Of a DNA stretch of 64,000 nt, positions 51,966 to 55,880 are shown in pieces. Source of the stretch: Oxalicibacterium flavum. GTDB lineage: Bacteria > Pseudomonadota > Gammaproteobacteria > Burkholderiales > Burkholderiaceae_D. The stretch covers positions 62,001 through 126,000 of the forward strand of contig NZ_BMCG01000002.1 of NCBI RefSeq assembly GCF_014635065.1, read 5' to 3'. The position numbers and the translations under genes are program-made. Every line of letters starts with the position of its first letter. Within the stretch, counting starts at the first letter, position 1. Below the pieces are notes generated by a model. That model did not search any database. It had not been told where the DNA came from and was given only the letters and a program-made list of their open reading frames with translations.

Positions 51966-53150
51966 ATGCCCGTCATCACCTGCATCGAAGACCTGCGCGT
52001 GCTCGCGCAAAAGCGCGTCCCGCGCATGTTCTACGACTACGCCGACGCCGGTTCGTGGACCGAATGTACCTACCGCGCCAATTGCAGCGACTTCGCGCCG
52101 ATCAAGTTCCGCCAGCGCGTGGCGGTCAACATGGAGAACCGCACGCTGCGCACCACCATGGTCGGCGAGGATGTGCGCATGCCGGTCGCGCTGGCGCCGA
52201 CCGGCTTTACCGGCATGCAGCATGCGGACGGCGAAATCCTCGCGGCGCGCGCGGCCGAGCGCTTCGGCGTGCCGTTCACGCTCTCGACCATGAGCATCTG
52301 CTCGATCGAGGACATCGCCGCGCATACCAGCAAGCCGTTCTGGTTCCAGCTTTACATGATGAAGGACCGCGCCTTCATCGAACGCCTGATCGCACGCGCC
52401 AAGGCCGCCAACTGCTCGGCGCTGGTGCTGACGCTCGACCTGCAGGTGCTGGGCCAGCGCCACAAGGACCTCAAGAACGGCCTGTCGGCGCCGCCCAAGC
52501 TGACGCTGCCGAACATCGTGAACATGATGACCAAGCCGCGCTGGTGCCTGGGCATGCTGGGCACGCAGCGGCGCGGTTTCGGCAACATCGTCGGCCATGC
52601 GAGCGACGTGTCGGACCTGTCGTCGCTGTCGGCCTGGACTGCGCAGCAGTTCGATCCGGCGCTGTCGTGGGCCGATGTGGAATGGATCAAGCAGCGCTGG
52701 GACGGCAAGCTCATCATCAAGGGCATCATGGACCCCGAGGATGCGCGGTTGGCGGTACAGAGCGGGGCGGATGCGATCGTGGTGTCCAACCACGGCGGGC
52801 GCCAGCTCGACGGCGCGCTGTCCAGCATCGCCGCCTTGCCGGGCATCGTCGATGCGGTCGGCAGCGAGATCGAGGTCCACATGGATGGCGGCATCCGCTC
52901 GGGGCAGGACGTGATCAAGGCGCTCGCGCTGGGCGCCAAGGGCGTCTATATCGGCCGCGCCTTCCTGTACGGACTCGGTGCGATGGGCGAGGCCGGCGTG
53001 ACCAAGACGTTGGAAATCATCGAGCGAGAACTCGACCTGACCATGGCCTTCTGCGGCTTGACCGACGTGCGCAAGGTCGATAAGGCGATCCTGATTCCGG
53101 GCACCTGGCAGGTTCCGCAGAGCTATATTCTTCCTGGCGATCTGGCATAA
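51966..53150 (+). CDS. lldD: L-lactate dehydrogenase (FMN, LldD-type alpha-hydroxyacid oxidase)
   Basis: A 394-residue FMN enzyme of the LldD/glycolate oxidase family. It starts ITCIEDLRVLAQKRVPRMFYDYADAGSW-like as LldD does and has VSNHGGRQLDG (catalytic His/Arg near 275) and HMDGGIRSGQDVIKALALGA (FMN phosphate site). The middle holds the longer loop 180-230 that in LldD meets the membrane, so electrons probably enter the quinone pool. A second, smaller hydroxyacid oxidase is at 28446-29558. It is the last housekeeping-like gene before the AT-rich islet. Confidence 0.92.
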   Translation: MPVITCIEDLRVLAQKRVPRMFYDYADAGSWTECTYRANCSDFAPIKFRQRVAVNMENRTLRTTMVGEDVRMPVALAPTGFTGMQHADGEILAARAAERFGVPFTLSTMSICSIEDIAAHTSKPFWFQLYMMKDRAFIERLIARAKAANCSALVLTLDLQVLGQRHKDLKNGLSAPPKLTLPNIVNMMTKPRWCLGMLGTQRRGFGNIVGHASDVSDLSSLSAWTAQQFDPALSWADVEWIKQRWDGKLIIKGIMDPEDARLAVQSGADAIVVSNHGGRQLDGALSSIAALPGIVDAVGSEIEVHMDGGIRSGQDVIKALALGAKGVYIGRAFLYGLGAMGEAGVTKTLEIIERELDLTMAFCGLTDVRKVDKAILIPGTWQVPQSYILPGDLA

Positions 53151-53200
53151 GAGATATGCGAGATGAAAGAAAGATACCAAAGACAAAGGCGATGGTAGCC

Positions 53201-53533
53201 TCATCTACAAGGAAACGTATCCTTAAGTAATCCTCCAAACAGGACTTCCGAAGGTAGATGACGTATTTGAGGTTCGTCGCGCAATTGTTTCTTGAATAAG
53301 TCGATGAGTTGTAACGTAGTCACATGCTCAGGGAGACAAAAGAATTTTTGCTGCTTCGTAAGATATGCTTGTGCACTTACACCATTCATGAAGCCATTTA
53401 TAAAACCTACGCAGATGCCTTCTCTCGCATCCTTCGCATTGCAGACATTGTGGTAGTAGTTGCCGTCCAAAGCGAATGTATTAAATGAGCCAACAAGAAG
53501 CATTTGCATTAATAATATATTTTTAATTTTCAT
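53201..53533 (-). CDS. Rap1a/Tai-like small secreted protein
   Basis: A 110-residue precursor with a signal peptide (hydrophobic 7-19, cleavage near TFA at 21). Mature part has four cysteines (31, 41, 66, 109), giving two likely disulfides. The order C(x9)C-VGFINGF, FFCLPEHVTTLQLIDL and final FPC matches the Rap1a/Tai family, which includes periplasmic immunity proteins against type VI secretion amidase effectors. No T6SS gene is in the window, so the role may differ. It is AT-rich, on the minus strand 29 bases after the 323-residue gene, and probably cotranscribed with it. Ribosome site weak. Confidence 0.8.
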   Translation of the reverse strand: MKIKNILLMQMLLVGSFNTFALDGNYYHNVCNAKDAREGICVGFINGFMNGVSAQAYLTKQQKFFCLPEHVTTLQLIDLFKKQLRDEPQIRHLPSEVLFGGLLKDTFPCR

Positions 53534-53562
53534 TTTATGAATAGGAAGTTATTCAAGATTAA

Positions 53563-54534
53563 TTAAGATTGCACAGTCTTTATAAGTTGGGCTGCACGAA
53601 TCTGTCCGCGAATGATTGTTGCATTAACTTCCAGCTTTACCGGTAGACGTTTTTCAGCACATTCCCAAATTTTCTTGCGGCTGTCTGCATCGATTTCTTC
53701 ATCTAGGATTGTGATCGAAAACTCACCAGTTTCAGCACTCGCAAGCCAGATTTTTGTGGCACTTTCTCTAAACTCCATGCGAACGATGACAAAATCGTTG
53801 GAGATAATTTTTGCGTCTGCCTTTTCTTTTGCAGCTCGCTGATTAATTTCTTGAATTTCTTCCGAATCGAAGGTGATTCTGCCAATTTTTATTTCGGCAG
53901 CATCTGATGCCCCTTTAACGATTGCACGAGTACCTTCTTCCGAGGCTTTAGAAAAACGTGCTGCTACTTGGTTCTTCTCAGCTAGTTTGCTGAATTCTTG
54001 TAACCGCGCAGTTTCTTGCTGGTTTCCATCAATTGCTATCTGCGCAGCGATTTCAGCCTTTTTAACATCTGCCAATGTCTCGGTAATAGTTATAGCTCCC
54101 CATCCAATTGCAATAATTAACGCGACAGTAATGATGGTTTTCCGTTTATCTATGCTATCCATAGAGGTCATGCCTTCCGCGAGCTTTTCTAAAAATCCAG
54201 TAATAACAGCAGTAATACTGGTGGAACCTTCATTCACATTGAAAATGAGTTGAAAATCAATTCGCTGCTCACCAGTGAGTTTCCGAATATCATCTGATCC
54301 ATACAAAGCAAAGGCGGCCGCCCTGTAGAGTTGTTCTTGAAATTCCCACAAGCCTCGAGCAAGTTCAGCTGGGATGCTCGAATCGTATTTCGTGCCTTCA
54401 ATATGGGCAGTCCATTCCGAAAGTTCTCCAGTAAAAACCAACGGCACGTCAAATTTAGCCCCGTCAGAAATTTTTAAAAGTGCTTCGTCAATTGTTGAGA
54501 TTAATTCAGCTTGATTATCATTGCGGCCGGGCAT
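53563..54534 (-). CDS. Unrecognised 323-residue single-pass membrane protein in AT-rich islet
   Basis: Layout: acidic soluble N-terminal domain (about 1-128) containing IPAELARGLWEFQEQLYRAA and a conserved-looking LTGEQRIDFQLIF stretch; one membrane helix (about 133-152, TIITVALIIAIGWGAITITE); an Ala/Glu/Lys-rich, probably coiled segment (about 155-230); and a beta-strand-rich C-terminal domain (about 240-323). No enzyme motif is visible. An AAGGAAC ribosome site lies 7 bases before the ATG. Codon use is AT-rich, unlike its neighbours. It is first of a two-gene operon with the Rap1a/Tai-like gene. Topology and role unknown. Confidence 0.75.
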   Translation of the reverse strand: MPGRNDNQAELISTIDEALLKISDGAKFDVPLVFTGELSEWTAHIEGTKYDSSIPAELARGLWEFQEQLYRAAAFALYGSDDIRKLTGEQRIDFQLIFNVNEGSTSITAVITGFLEKLAEGMTSMDSIDKRKTIITVALIIAIGWGAITITETLADVKKAEIAAQIAIDGNQQETARLQEFSKLAEKNQVAARFSKASEEGTRAIVKGASDAAEIKIGRITFDSEEIQEINQRAAKEKADAKIISNDFVIVRMEFRESATKIWLASAETGEFSITILDEEIDADSRKKIWECAEKRLPVKLEVNATIIRGQIRAAQLIKTVQS

Positions 54535-54709
54535 TAGAGTTCCTTTTTGTTTTTTGTAAAAGATATTTTTACTTTTCGTAAGTTGCCATACGAGATGGCG
54601 AAAGTTTGACGTTTCGTGGATGTACCTTGAAAAGCCTCATGTAACCCCTAATTATCATTGCTAAACAGTAATGTTGCACCACATAAATATGGGATGCCGC
54701 CCTGTTTAA

Positions 54710-54725
54710 CTGTATTTATATACAG
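54710..54725. promoter_or_regulatory. LexA (SOS) box before the radical SAM gene
   Basis: CTGTATTTATATACAG: perfect CTGT-N8-ACAG with an all-AT core, flanked by AA and TA. It ends 12 bases before the ATG of the 54738 gene, overlapping its promoter. Confidence 0.82.
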
Positions 54726-54737
54726 TATAGTGGGCGC

Positions 54738-55880
54738 ATGATTAATCGTGATTGGCCTCTTGTCTTCAAGCCGTTTCCACTCAAGGCGGAAAAAGGGCGC
54801 GGCGCTGTCTCCAATCTGCAGGGCCGCTACGAGGTGCTTGGGCGCGAACGCTTCGACGACGGCTGGACACATGAGGACGAGGAAGAAGACGGCCGCCGTA
54901 TCGTCACTACCGTCCACCACGAGCAGGCAAAAACCATCCTGAGCCGCAACGCCTCGCCCGACATCCCGTTCGGCGTGTCGCTGAATCCCTACCGTGGTTG
55001 CGAGCACGGCTGCATCTATTGTTTCGCGCGTCCCACGCACAGCTATCTGGGCCTGTCGCCCGGCATGGACTTCGAGACGCGGCTGTTCGCCAAGGTCAAC
55101 GCGCCGGAACTGCTGCGGCAGGAACTGGCGAAGCCTTCCTATATGCCGGAACCGATCGCGCTCGGCATCAACACTGACGCCTACCAGCCCTGCGAACGCA
55201 CGCTGGGCCTGACGCGGCGCGTACTCGAGGTGCTGCACGAATGCCGTCATCCGGTCGGGCTGATCAGCAAGTCGTCGCTGATCGAGCGCGACATCGACCT
55301 GCTTGCGCCGATGGCCGCCGACCGCCTGGCCGGCGCCGCCGTCACGCTGACCACGCTCGATCCGACCATCGCGCGGACGCTGGAACCGCGCGCGGCGGCA
55401 CCGGCGCGTCGTCTGCGCACGATACGCACGCTGGCCGAGGCCGGCATTCCGGTCAGTGTCAGCATCGCGCCGGTGATCCCGTTCGTGACCGAGCCGGACC
55501 TCGAGCACATCGTGCAGGCCGCCTTCGATGCCGGCGCCTGCAGCGCGCACTACATCGTGCTGCGCCTGCCGTGGGAAGTCAGCCCGCTGTTCCGCGAATG
55601 GCTGGAGGCGCATTTCCCGGACCGTGCGCAACGCGTGATGAACCGCATCCAGGACATGCGCGGCGGCAAGGACTACGACGCCGACTTCGCCACGCGCATG
55701 AAGGGCGAGGGCATCTGGGCCGACCTGATCCGCCAGCGCTTCGAAAAGGCGGTGGCGCGCTACGGCGTACAGGGACCGGACCGTTTTGGCGGGCTCGATA
55801 CCTCGCAGTTCCGCCGCCCGCTGACGGTGCCGACAAAAGAAAAGGCCGGCAAGCATGCCGGCCAGCTCGACCTGTTCTGA
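54738..55880 (+). CDS. PA0069-family radical SAM protein
   Basis: A 380-residue radical SAM enzyme. The cluster motif is Cys88-x3-Cys92-x2-Cys95 (CEHGCIYC) and the whole resembles spore-photoproduct-lyase-like and PA0069/Rv2578c proteins (LSRNASPDIPFGVSLNPYRG, YRGCEHGCIYCFARPTHSY parts; ISKSSLIERDIDLL; RIQDMRGGKDYDADF). The reaction is not established; a DNA or RNA repair/modification role is often suggested. It sits directly behind a LexA box and is convergent with an SDR gene 10 bases away. ATG 54738 is the natural start and lies within the SOS promoter context. Confidence 0.93.
   Translation: MINRDWPLVFKPFPLKAEKGRGAVSNLQGRYEVLGRERFDDGWTHEDEEEDGRRIVTTVHHEQAKTILSRNASPDIPFGVSLNPYRGCEHGCIYCFARPTHSYLGLSPGMDFETRLFAKVNAPELLRQELAKPSYMPEPIALGINTDAYQPCERTLGLTRRVLEVLHECRHPVGLISKSSLIERDIDLLAPMAADRLAGAAVTLTTLDPTIARTLEPRAAAPARRLRTIRTLAEAGIPVSVSIAPVIPFVTEPDLEHIVQAAFDAGACSAHYIVLRLPWEVSPLFREWLEAHFPDRAQRVMNRIQDMRGGKDYDADFATRMKGEGIWADLIRQRFEKAVARYGVQGPDRFGGLDTSQFRRPLTVPTKEKAGKHAGQLDLF

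Follow-up and report, generated by a model that had tools for sequence, protein, structure and literature searches.

The window, i.e., the whole stretch of 64,000 nucleotides that was analysed, harbors an AT-rich islet of two genes borne by the same strand and separated by only 29 bases, in agreement with the original prediction. The islet and its surroundings comprise the following features:

51966-53150, plus strand: FMN-dependent dehydrogenase gene, the left flank of the islet
53151-54737, no strand assigned: AT-rich inserted islet, between the FMN-dependent dehydrogenase gene and the radical-SAM gene
53186-53202, minus strand: terminator-like stem at the stop codon of the Rap1a gene (from a consensus scan only)
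53201-53533, minus strand: gene of a 110-aa, secreted-looking Rap1a (PF18602) protein with cysteines 31, 41, 66 and 109
53563-54534, minus strand: gene of a 323-aa phrog_6191 protein with an acidic N-terminal domain, a transmembrane segment (residues 133-151), a helical stalk and a C-terminal OB-like domain (residues 238-323)
54710-54725, plus strand: CTGT-N8-ACAG palindrome upstream of the radical-SAM gene (54738), marking the right edge of the insert
54738-55880, plus strand: radical-SAM gene, the right flank of the islet

The GC content of the islet is 40.8% (0.408), versus 63% for the window as a whole and 57.3% (0.573) for the lowest of any stretch of the same length that does not overlap the islet, which bears out the sharp compositional drop first noticed between these housekeeping-like genes. 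The 500-bp segments with less than 50% GC all fall in the islet and nowhere else in the window, and at third codon positions the two islet genes have a GC content of 0.35-0.40, versus 0.83-0.90 for the flanking genes.

The islet is an insertion, because the genes that flank it are adjacent in two sister genomes (G012 and G006), where they are almost joined (about 85 and 62 bp apart, as counted by eye). The similarity of these sisters to the window ends at 53108-53123 and restarts at about 54709, i.e., at the palindrome located at 54710-54725. A palindrome of this CTGT-N8-ACAG form, which we take to be LexA-box-like, is present at the equivalent place in G012 and G006, and is thus common to all three genomes; at least one such match arose in 36 of the 100 shuffled versions of the window. 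The radical-SAM gene may be SOS-controlled through this palindrome, and the islet lies directly beyond that promoter region. In a third genome (G008), the dehydrogenase and radical-SAM genes are far apart. The radical-SAM gene is present in four of the 13 genomes of the genus (our own counted), and the dehydrogenase gives a long match, with at least 85% identity, in 12 of these 13 genomes (our own counted) and weak partial matches in the thirteenth. Together, the low GC content and the empty site of the two sister genomes support the horizontal acquisition of the islet, as first predicted.

No integrase or transposase was recognised in the islet, no tRNA gene was found across the 64-kb window, and neither phage genes nor a repressor were found beside the islet pair in the window. 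The search for flanking att-like or long direct repeats returned only short chance-like pairs, none of which was convincing. The terminator-like stem at the stop codon of the Rap1a gene is consistent with a two-gene transcript. The consensus scan that located this stem returned four terminator-like sites, versus 1.8 (standard deviation 1.2) expected by shuffling, and no minus-strand promoter-like site before the 323-aa gene.

The 323-aa protein had been described as a single-pass membrane protein of no recognisable kind. It does possess a single clear hydrophobic segment (residues 133-151), and it can now be placed, as its residues 18-321 match positions 19-332 of the 338-position profile of phrog_6191 (E 5e-41), a family listed in PHROGs v4 with unknown function. 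All 26 members of our family alignment (A5) match this same profile. The members of phrog_6191 are only about 18-24% identical to the window protein (19-23% for the twelve relatives in a 13-row alignment), and the most conserved positions in the 13-row alignment (G47, Q66, L86 and G103) all belong to the N-terminal domain. Similarly to the products of gene mEp33204 of phage mEp332 and of the phiR12 gene, the window protein shows a near full-length match to the family, with the same place of the hydrophobic segment and the same order of domains, whereas it differs from the other members in being encoded outside a recognisable prophage and next to a Rap1a gene.

Searches of Pfam, NCBIfam, PADLOC and PDB sequences yielded no convincing match, either for the 323-aa protein or for its family, and the weak matches to Cas6, HEC-02B, DesA and PDC-M43A (E 0.007-0.2) were discarded as chance. 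The phiR12 phages label their member (L013:3860-4885) as a "T2SS GspM containing protein"; a Pfam scan of 13 members, the phiR12 one included, returned no GspM match. We found no functional description of phrog_6191 members in open-licence PMC text, and subscription papers may describe one. The available parts of PMC4587872, PMC9122126 and PMC12945033 hold nothing on a phrog_6191-type gene, and the literature passage available on UTI89_C5141, which is named as similar in the mEp332 record, places that gene in an expression list.

The AlphaFold2 model generated from the 26-member alignment (mean pLDDT 84.1, pTM 0.68) predicts an N-terminal alpha/beta domain, followed by the hydrophobic segment (133-151), a helical stalk and a beta-rich region (238-323). 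In this full-length model, the ten-residue blocks of the N-terminal domain mostly have pLDDT values of 84-95 (53 and 70 for the first and third blocks); modelled alone, this domain reached a mean pLDDT of 62, too poor for a fold comparison. Residues 238-323 match OB-type chains with Z scores up to 8.6 over 69-84 residues, among the matches listed. This OB-like fold is uninformative on function, because the best matches are heterogeneous (SilF, AB5 toxin B subunits and tRNA synthetases) and their Z scores of 8.5-8.6 are near the range that the structure-comparison tool calls common. One fold search returned no PDB structure at E 0.001 or better, and two uncharacterised BFVD phage proteins, although aligned with the greater part of the model (E values of 2e-6 and 7e-6), have TM-scores of only 0.28-0.36.

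Across the 26 members, the lysines and arginines beside the transmembrane segment number 56 on its N side versus 107 on its C side (the script having chosen, in L080, another hydrophobic stretch of equal score), which points to a C-inside orientation of the family; the window protein itself has 3 versus 2. We also considered that the C-terminal domain might be a DNA-sensing head, making the protein a one-chain Rex. This idea of a RexA-type DNA-binding sensor was weakened: the C-terminal fold is OB-like, but the net charge of the domain is 0 in the window protein and has a median of -3.5 (range -5 to +7) in the 26 members. This neutral to acidic character, seen in most members, argues against a role as a nucleic-acid sensor.

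To place the family, tblastn searches identified nine phage records and five plasmid records. Scans of viral contigs yielded 70 further loci (a further two viral scans, made with family proteins, were negative), and a scan of genome contigs yielded two more, while that made with the window protein was negative. Before the count, we set aside two loci matching over the membrane/stalk part only (L029 and L030), two regarded as chance (L007 and L008; E about 4e-4 for all four), six loci holding the window itself, and six short genome loci that were replaced by their enlargements (L103-L108). The resulting 86 loci form 26 clusters at 90% identity. A repressor-like gene occurs directly upstream, on the same strand, in 13 of these clusters (30 loci), and four clusters (42 loci) have the member beside the antiterminator Q gene, on the opposite strand. 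The other nine (14 loci), of which one is carried by a Vibrio plasmid, are at neither site. The combined count of 17 clusters at a repressor or Q site is partly circular, as it uses jackhmmer seeds drawn from some of the counted loci, and the window copy itself is not carried at such a lysogeny site of a phage or prophage. The upstream repressor was confirmed by annotation in three clusters, by Pfam S24/HTH matches in seven (L099 being just under the cut-off and L104 showing the HTH only) and by jackhmmer alone in three; antiterminator Q was named by Pfam for one of the Q-site clusters. Most of the sampled relatives occupy lysogeny-cargo sites of temperate phages or prophages, in a sample that leans to the groups near the scan queries and whose viral-contig collections are phage by construction.

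The repressor-linked arrangement is best illustrated by mEp332, in which the family gene (mEp33204) directly follows cI and precedes the terminator Timm, within what is annotated as the immunity region. The phage phiR12_2 has its family gene in the same order behind the repressor, as does a 7-kb lambda-like E. coli plasmid record. This "plasmid" (L016, CP148562.1) is largely a lambda-type immunity and replication region, with genes for a CI/LexA-type repressor, Cro, CII, a replication protein and P, and ren. Another record of the plasmid collection (L015, NZ_OL790811.1; Proteus mirabilis, 4.08 Mb) looks like a mislabelled chromosome. At the Q site, the member of one cluster is preceded on the same strand, at a distance of 200-250 bp, by a gene for a short secreted-looking protein (L043:4340-4729, and also in L044 and L101); the L043 protein has no PADLOC match, and a jackhmmer search with the window Rap1a protein did not retrieve this short protein.

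The genome searches, which constitute a less biased sample of the phrog_6191 context than the viral-contig scans, returned six believable members outside the window. Three of them are behind regulators (S24 type in L105 and L106, HTH in L104), a fourth (L103) is about 2 kb from a phage integrase, and the last two (L107 and L108) have neighbours which we take to be Mu-like genes, the gene upstream of the L108 member encoding an outer-membrane barrel (Pfam). The window copy departs from this pattern, as no phage gene adjoins it. In L103 (genome G034, L103:8913-10689), the member is followed, 13 bp further on, by a 279-aa gene with no Pfam or PADLOC match, then by a DUF2971 gene (weak PADLOC PDC-S31 score) and by the phage integrase; this region is possibly the end of a defence-rich element. 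Within the order, phrog_6191 is rare, being found in six of 399 genomes, two of which are near the threshold and probably chance matches. Of 5426 complete E. coli genomes, 18 contain one member and 86 contain another, with at least 99% identity, and the copies listed (eight for each member) bear the annotation "hypothetical protein".

Repressor-linked prophage cargo is of an already known kind. BstA is an abortive-infection protein reported at a repressor-linked prophage site, and 15 of 72 BstA homologues were classed as putatively prophage-independent, according to the available part of PMC8585504. As described in the passages available to us, bstA is transcribed from the cI promoter, as a repressor-linked gene sharing the lysogen transcription (PMC7067206), and a RexAB-type system was reported in a Pseudomonas putida prophage (PMC12894663). 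Genes located behind a prophage repressor can share the transcription of this repressor in lysogens. Similarly to BstA and RexAB, phrog_6191 members stand directly behind a repressor in half of the clusters; by analogy, they are putative exclusion genes. Unlike these systems, the window copy has no adjoining repressor; no sequence relation was established, and phrog_6191 is a single chain with a transmembrane segment. Because the family is sited like repressor-linked exclusion genes, superinfection exclusion is, as judged from position only, the most likely role of the 323-aa protein.

The siting of the family beside the repressor or antiterminator Q would also suit a membrane protein that serves its own phage, by tuning the switch or the lysis timing of its prophage instead of excluding other phages, in the way that RexA reportedly biases the switch of lambda (available part of PMC11077077). 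We nevertheless regard such a role as quite unlikely, since the occurrence of two insertion sites, the opposite strand at Q and the stand-alone survival in a chromosome would better fit accessory cargo.

The other islet protein was correctly recognised at the outset as a four-cysteine, secreted-looking Rap1a-type protein. It matches the Pfam Rap1a family (PF18602) with 53.7 bits against a cut-off of 27.7 (E 3e-14), being the sole PF18602 match in the genome, and it also matches phrog_3870 (E 3e-8). Its N-terminal signal-like segment makes it look secreted, and its cysteines 31, 41, 66 and 109 align with the four cysteines of its closest relative, a 32% identical protein from the same genus (G011). 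No PDB chain matched it by sequence. The G011 gene resides in a prophage-like region, where it is preceded by an HTH repressor-like gene and a 105-aa gene and stands opposite a CII gene; an identical Rap1a gene is found in IMG/VR, borne by a viral contig of 38 kb. The single-sequence search with the window Rap1a protein gave matches in four of 148 genomes, our own counted. In phages, the settings are mixed: the Rap1a gene of DSL-LC04 is among small genes downstream of the DNA polymerase gene, that of Mwe-JY07 is behind an HTH gene and upstream of replication genes, and Cronobacter phage ENT47670 has a weakly Rap1a-like frame (L158:3001-3270, E 0.009) that is unannotated, opposite in strand to its neighbours and adjoining a head morphogenesis gene. 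PF18602 was found in 83 of the 399 genomes of the order, and its context in the 29 loci sampled from these 83 genomes (96 of 144 ORFs given to Pfam) was varied, with mostly chromosomal-looking families (25 of the 61 families shown).

The Rap1a protein resembles the T6SS immunity proteins of its family (presumably those named Tai4) by its score above the cut-off, its signal-like N-terminus and its four cysteines. In contrast with the Tae4/Tai4 pair, the own genome has no match to the Tae4 amidase (PF14113), a search that was positive in one of 14 control genomes, and no match to the T6SS sheath protein VipB, for which the search was likewise positive in one control genome. As Pfam describes PF18602 as Rap1a immunity proteins, the islet might be an orphan immunity islet against rival bacteria, in which the Rap1a protein would block foreign T6SS amidases and the membrane protein would be a passenger. 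A match to neither the cognate effector family nor the T6SS sheath is what is expected of an orphan, and a putative orphan T6SS/CDI immunity gene islet provides a precedent (available part of PMC7400221). We consider this explanation unlikely for three reasons. First, it does not account for the membrane protein, a member of a family consisting mostly of phage cargo. Second, the nearest Rap1a relative lies itself in a prophage-like region. Third, because PF18602 is common in the order, this label alone is no sign of T6SS immunity or of a T6SS islet.

The two genes had been predicted to form a two-gene immunity or envelope-sensing module, in which a membrane sensor would work with a periplasmic, disulfide-linked Rap1a partner. 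Such a co-operation is in line with their proximity on one strand, the terminator-like stem behind them and the low GC content of both, but several lines of evidence led us to reject it. First, PF18602 was detected in none of the 32 records or genomes carrying the membrane family, many of which are viral or plasmid sequences, in part fragments that could hide a partner; the same model found it in none of the 14 control genomes, and was positive in the own genome and in the 83 genomes of the order. The six genomes from the searches, as well as the two from which L101 and L102 derive, are likewise PF18602-negative. Second, jackhmmer with the window Rap1a protein found no match among the ORFs of the 86 family loci (the file holding no positive control). 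Third, the own genome (G000) is the only one of the order with both Rap1a (83/399) and phrog_6191 (6/399), although this overlap count is weak alone, since about one of the other five carriers would be expected by chance to have Rap1a at that frequency. Fourth, as mentioned above, neither VipB nor Tae4 was matched in the own genome. Within what was searched, the two genes were never adjacent elsewhere. Because none of the 32 carriers of the membrane family has PF18602, the adjacency of the two genes is, as far as the data go, an isolated event, and we regard the module as very unlikely. The original prediction thus stands for the horizontal acquisition and the Rap1a label, and falls for the two-gene sensor/immunity module.

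From these data, we propose, with a probability of about 0.55, that the islet is the stranded lysogenic-conversion cargo of a prophage, probably acting in superinfection exclusion. A small lysogenic-conversion piece would have inserted between two ordinary chromosomal genes and either lost the remainder of its phage or arrived without it. Temperate phages would often keep phrog_6191 genes where expression can persist in lysogeny, either immediately after the repressor gene or, in the opposite orientation, next to Q, and we infer that the cargo is expressed in the present host. The 323-aa protein would be an inner-membrane protein, probably oligomeric via its helical stalk, whose terminal domains might recognise a component of an incoming phage, so that entry is blocked or the infection is aborted. 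The Rap1a gene would probably be a second, independent cargo gene, encoding a disulfide-stabilised periplasmic protein that may neutralise a peptidoglycan-cleaving enzyme of a rival bacterium or of an incoming phage.

Several observations count against this cargo and exclusion reading. The nine clusters at neither site include one on a Vibrio plasmid, and a barrel gene precedes the member of L108. The islet itself has no flanking phage gene, repressor, att-like repeat or promoter-like site. No PADLOC model fits the family convincingly, its OB-like domain is neutral to acidic, and the settings of the phage Rap1a genes are mixed. Furthermore, morons can serve virulence or host fitness instead of exclusion.

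More tentatively, and with odds that we place somewhat short of even, phrog_6191 may be an undescribed one-gene superinfection-exclusion family of Gram-negative temperate phages, whose one-chain membrane protein would combine an acidic domain for sensing with a helical stalk and an OB-like head, and which would be expressed in lysogens from repressor or Q sites and could outlive the prophage as a stand-alone chromosomal defence, while repressor-linked Rap1a might be a second type of cargo, inhibiting phage peptidoglycan hydrolases.

The islet corrects the reading of two adjacent genes as one system. Phrog_6191, which is without an assigned function, occupies a known exclusion-gene position in half of the sampled clusters, and such a placement is seen in enterobacterial, Moraxella and other prophages, which makes this family a concrete, testable candidate for exclusion. 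The window also suggests that prophage cargo can outlive its prophage.
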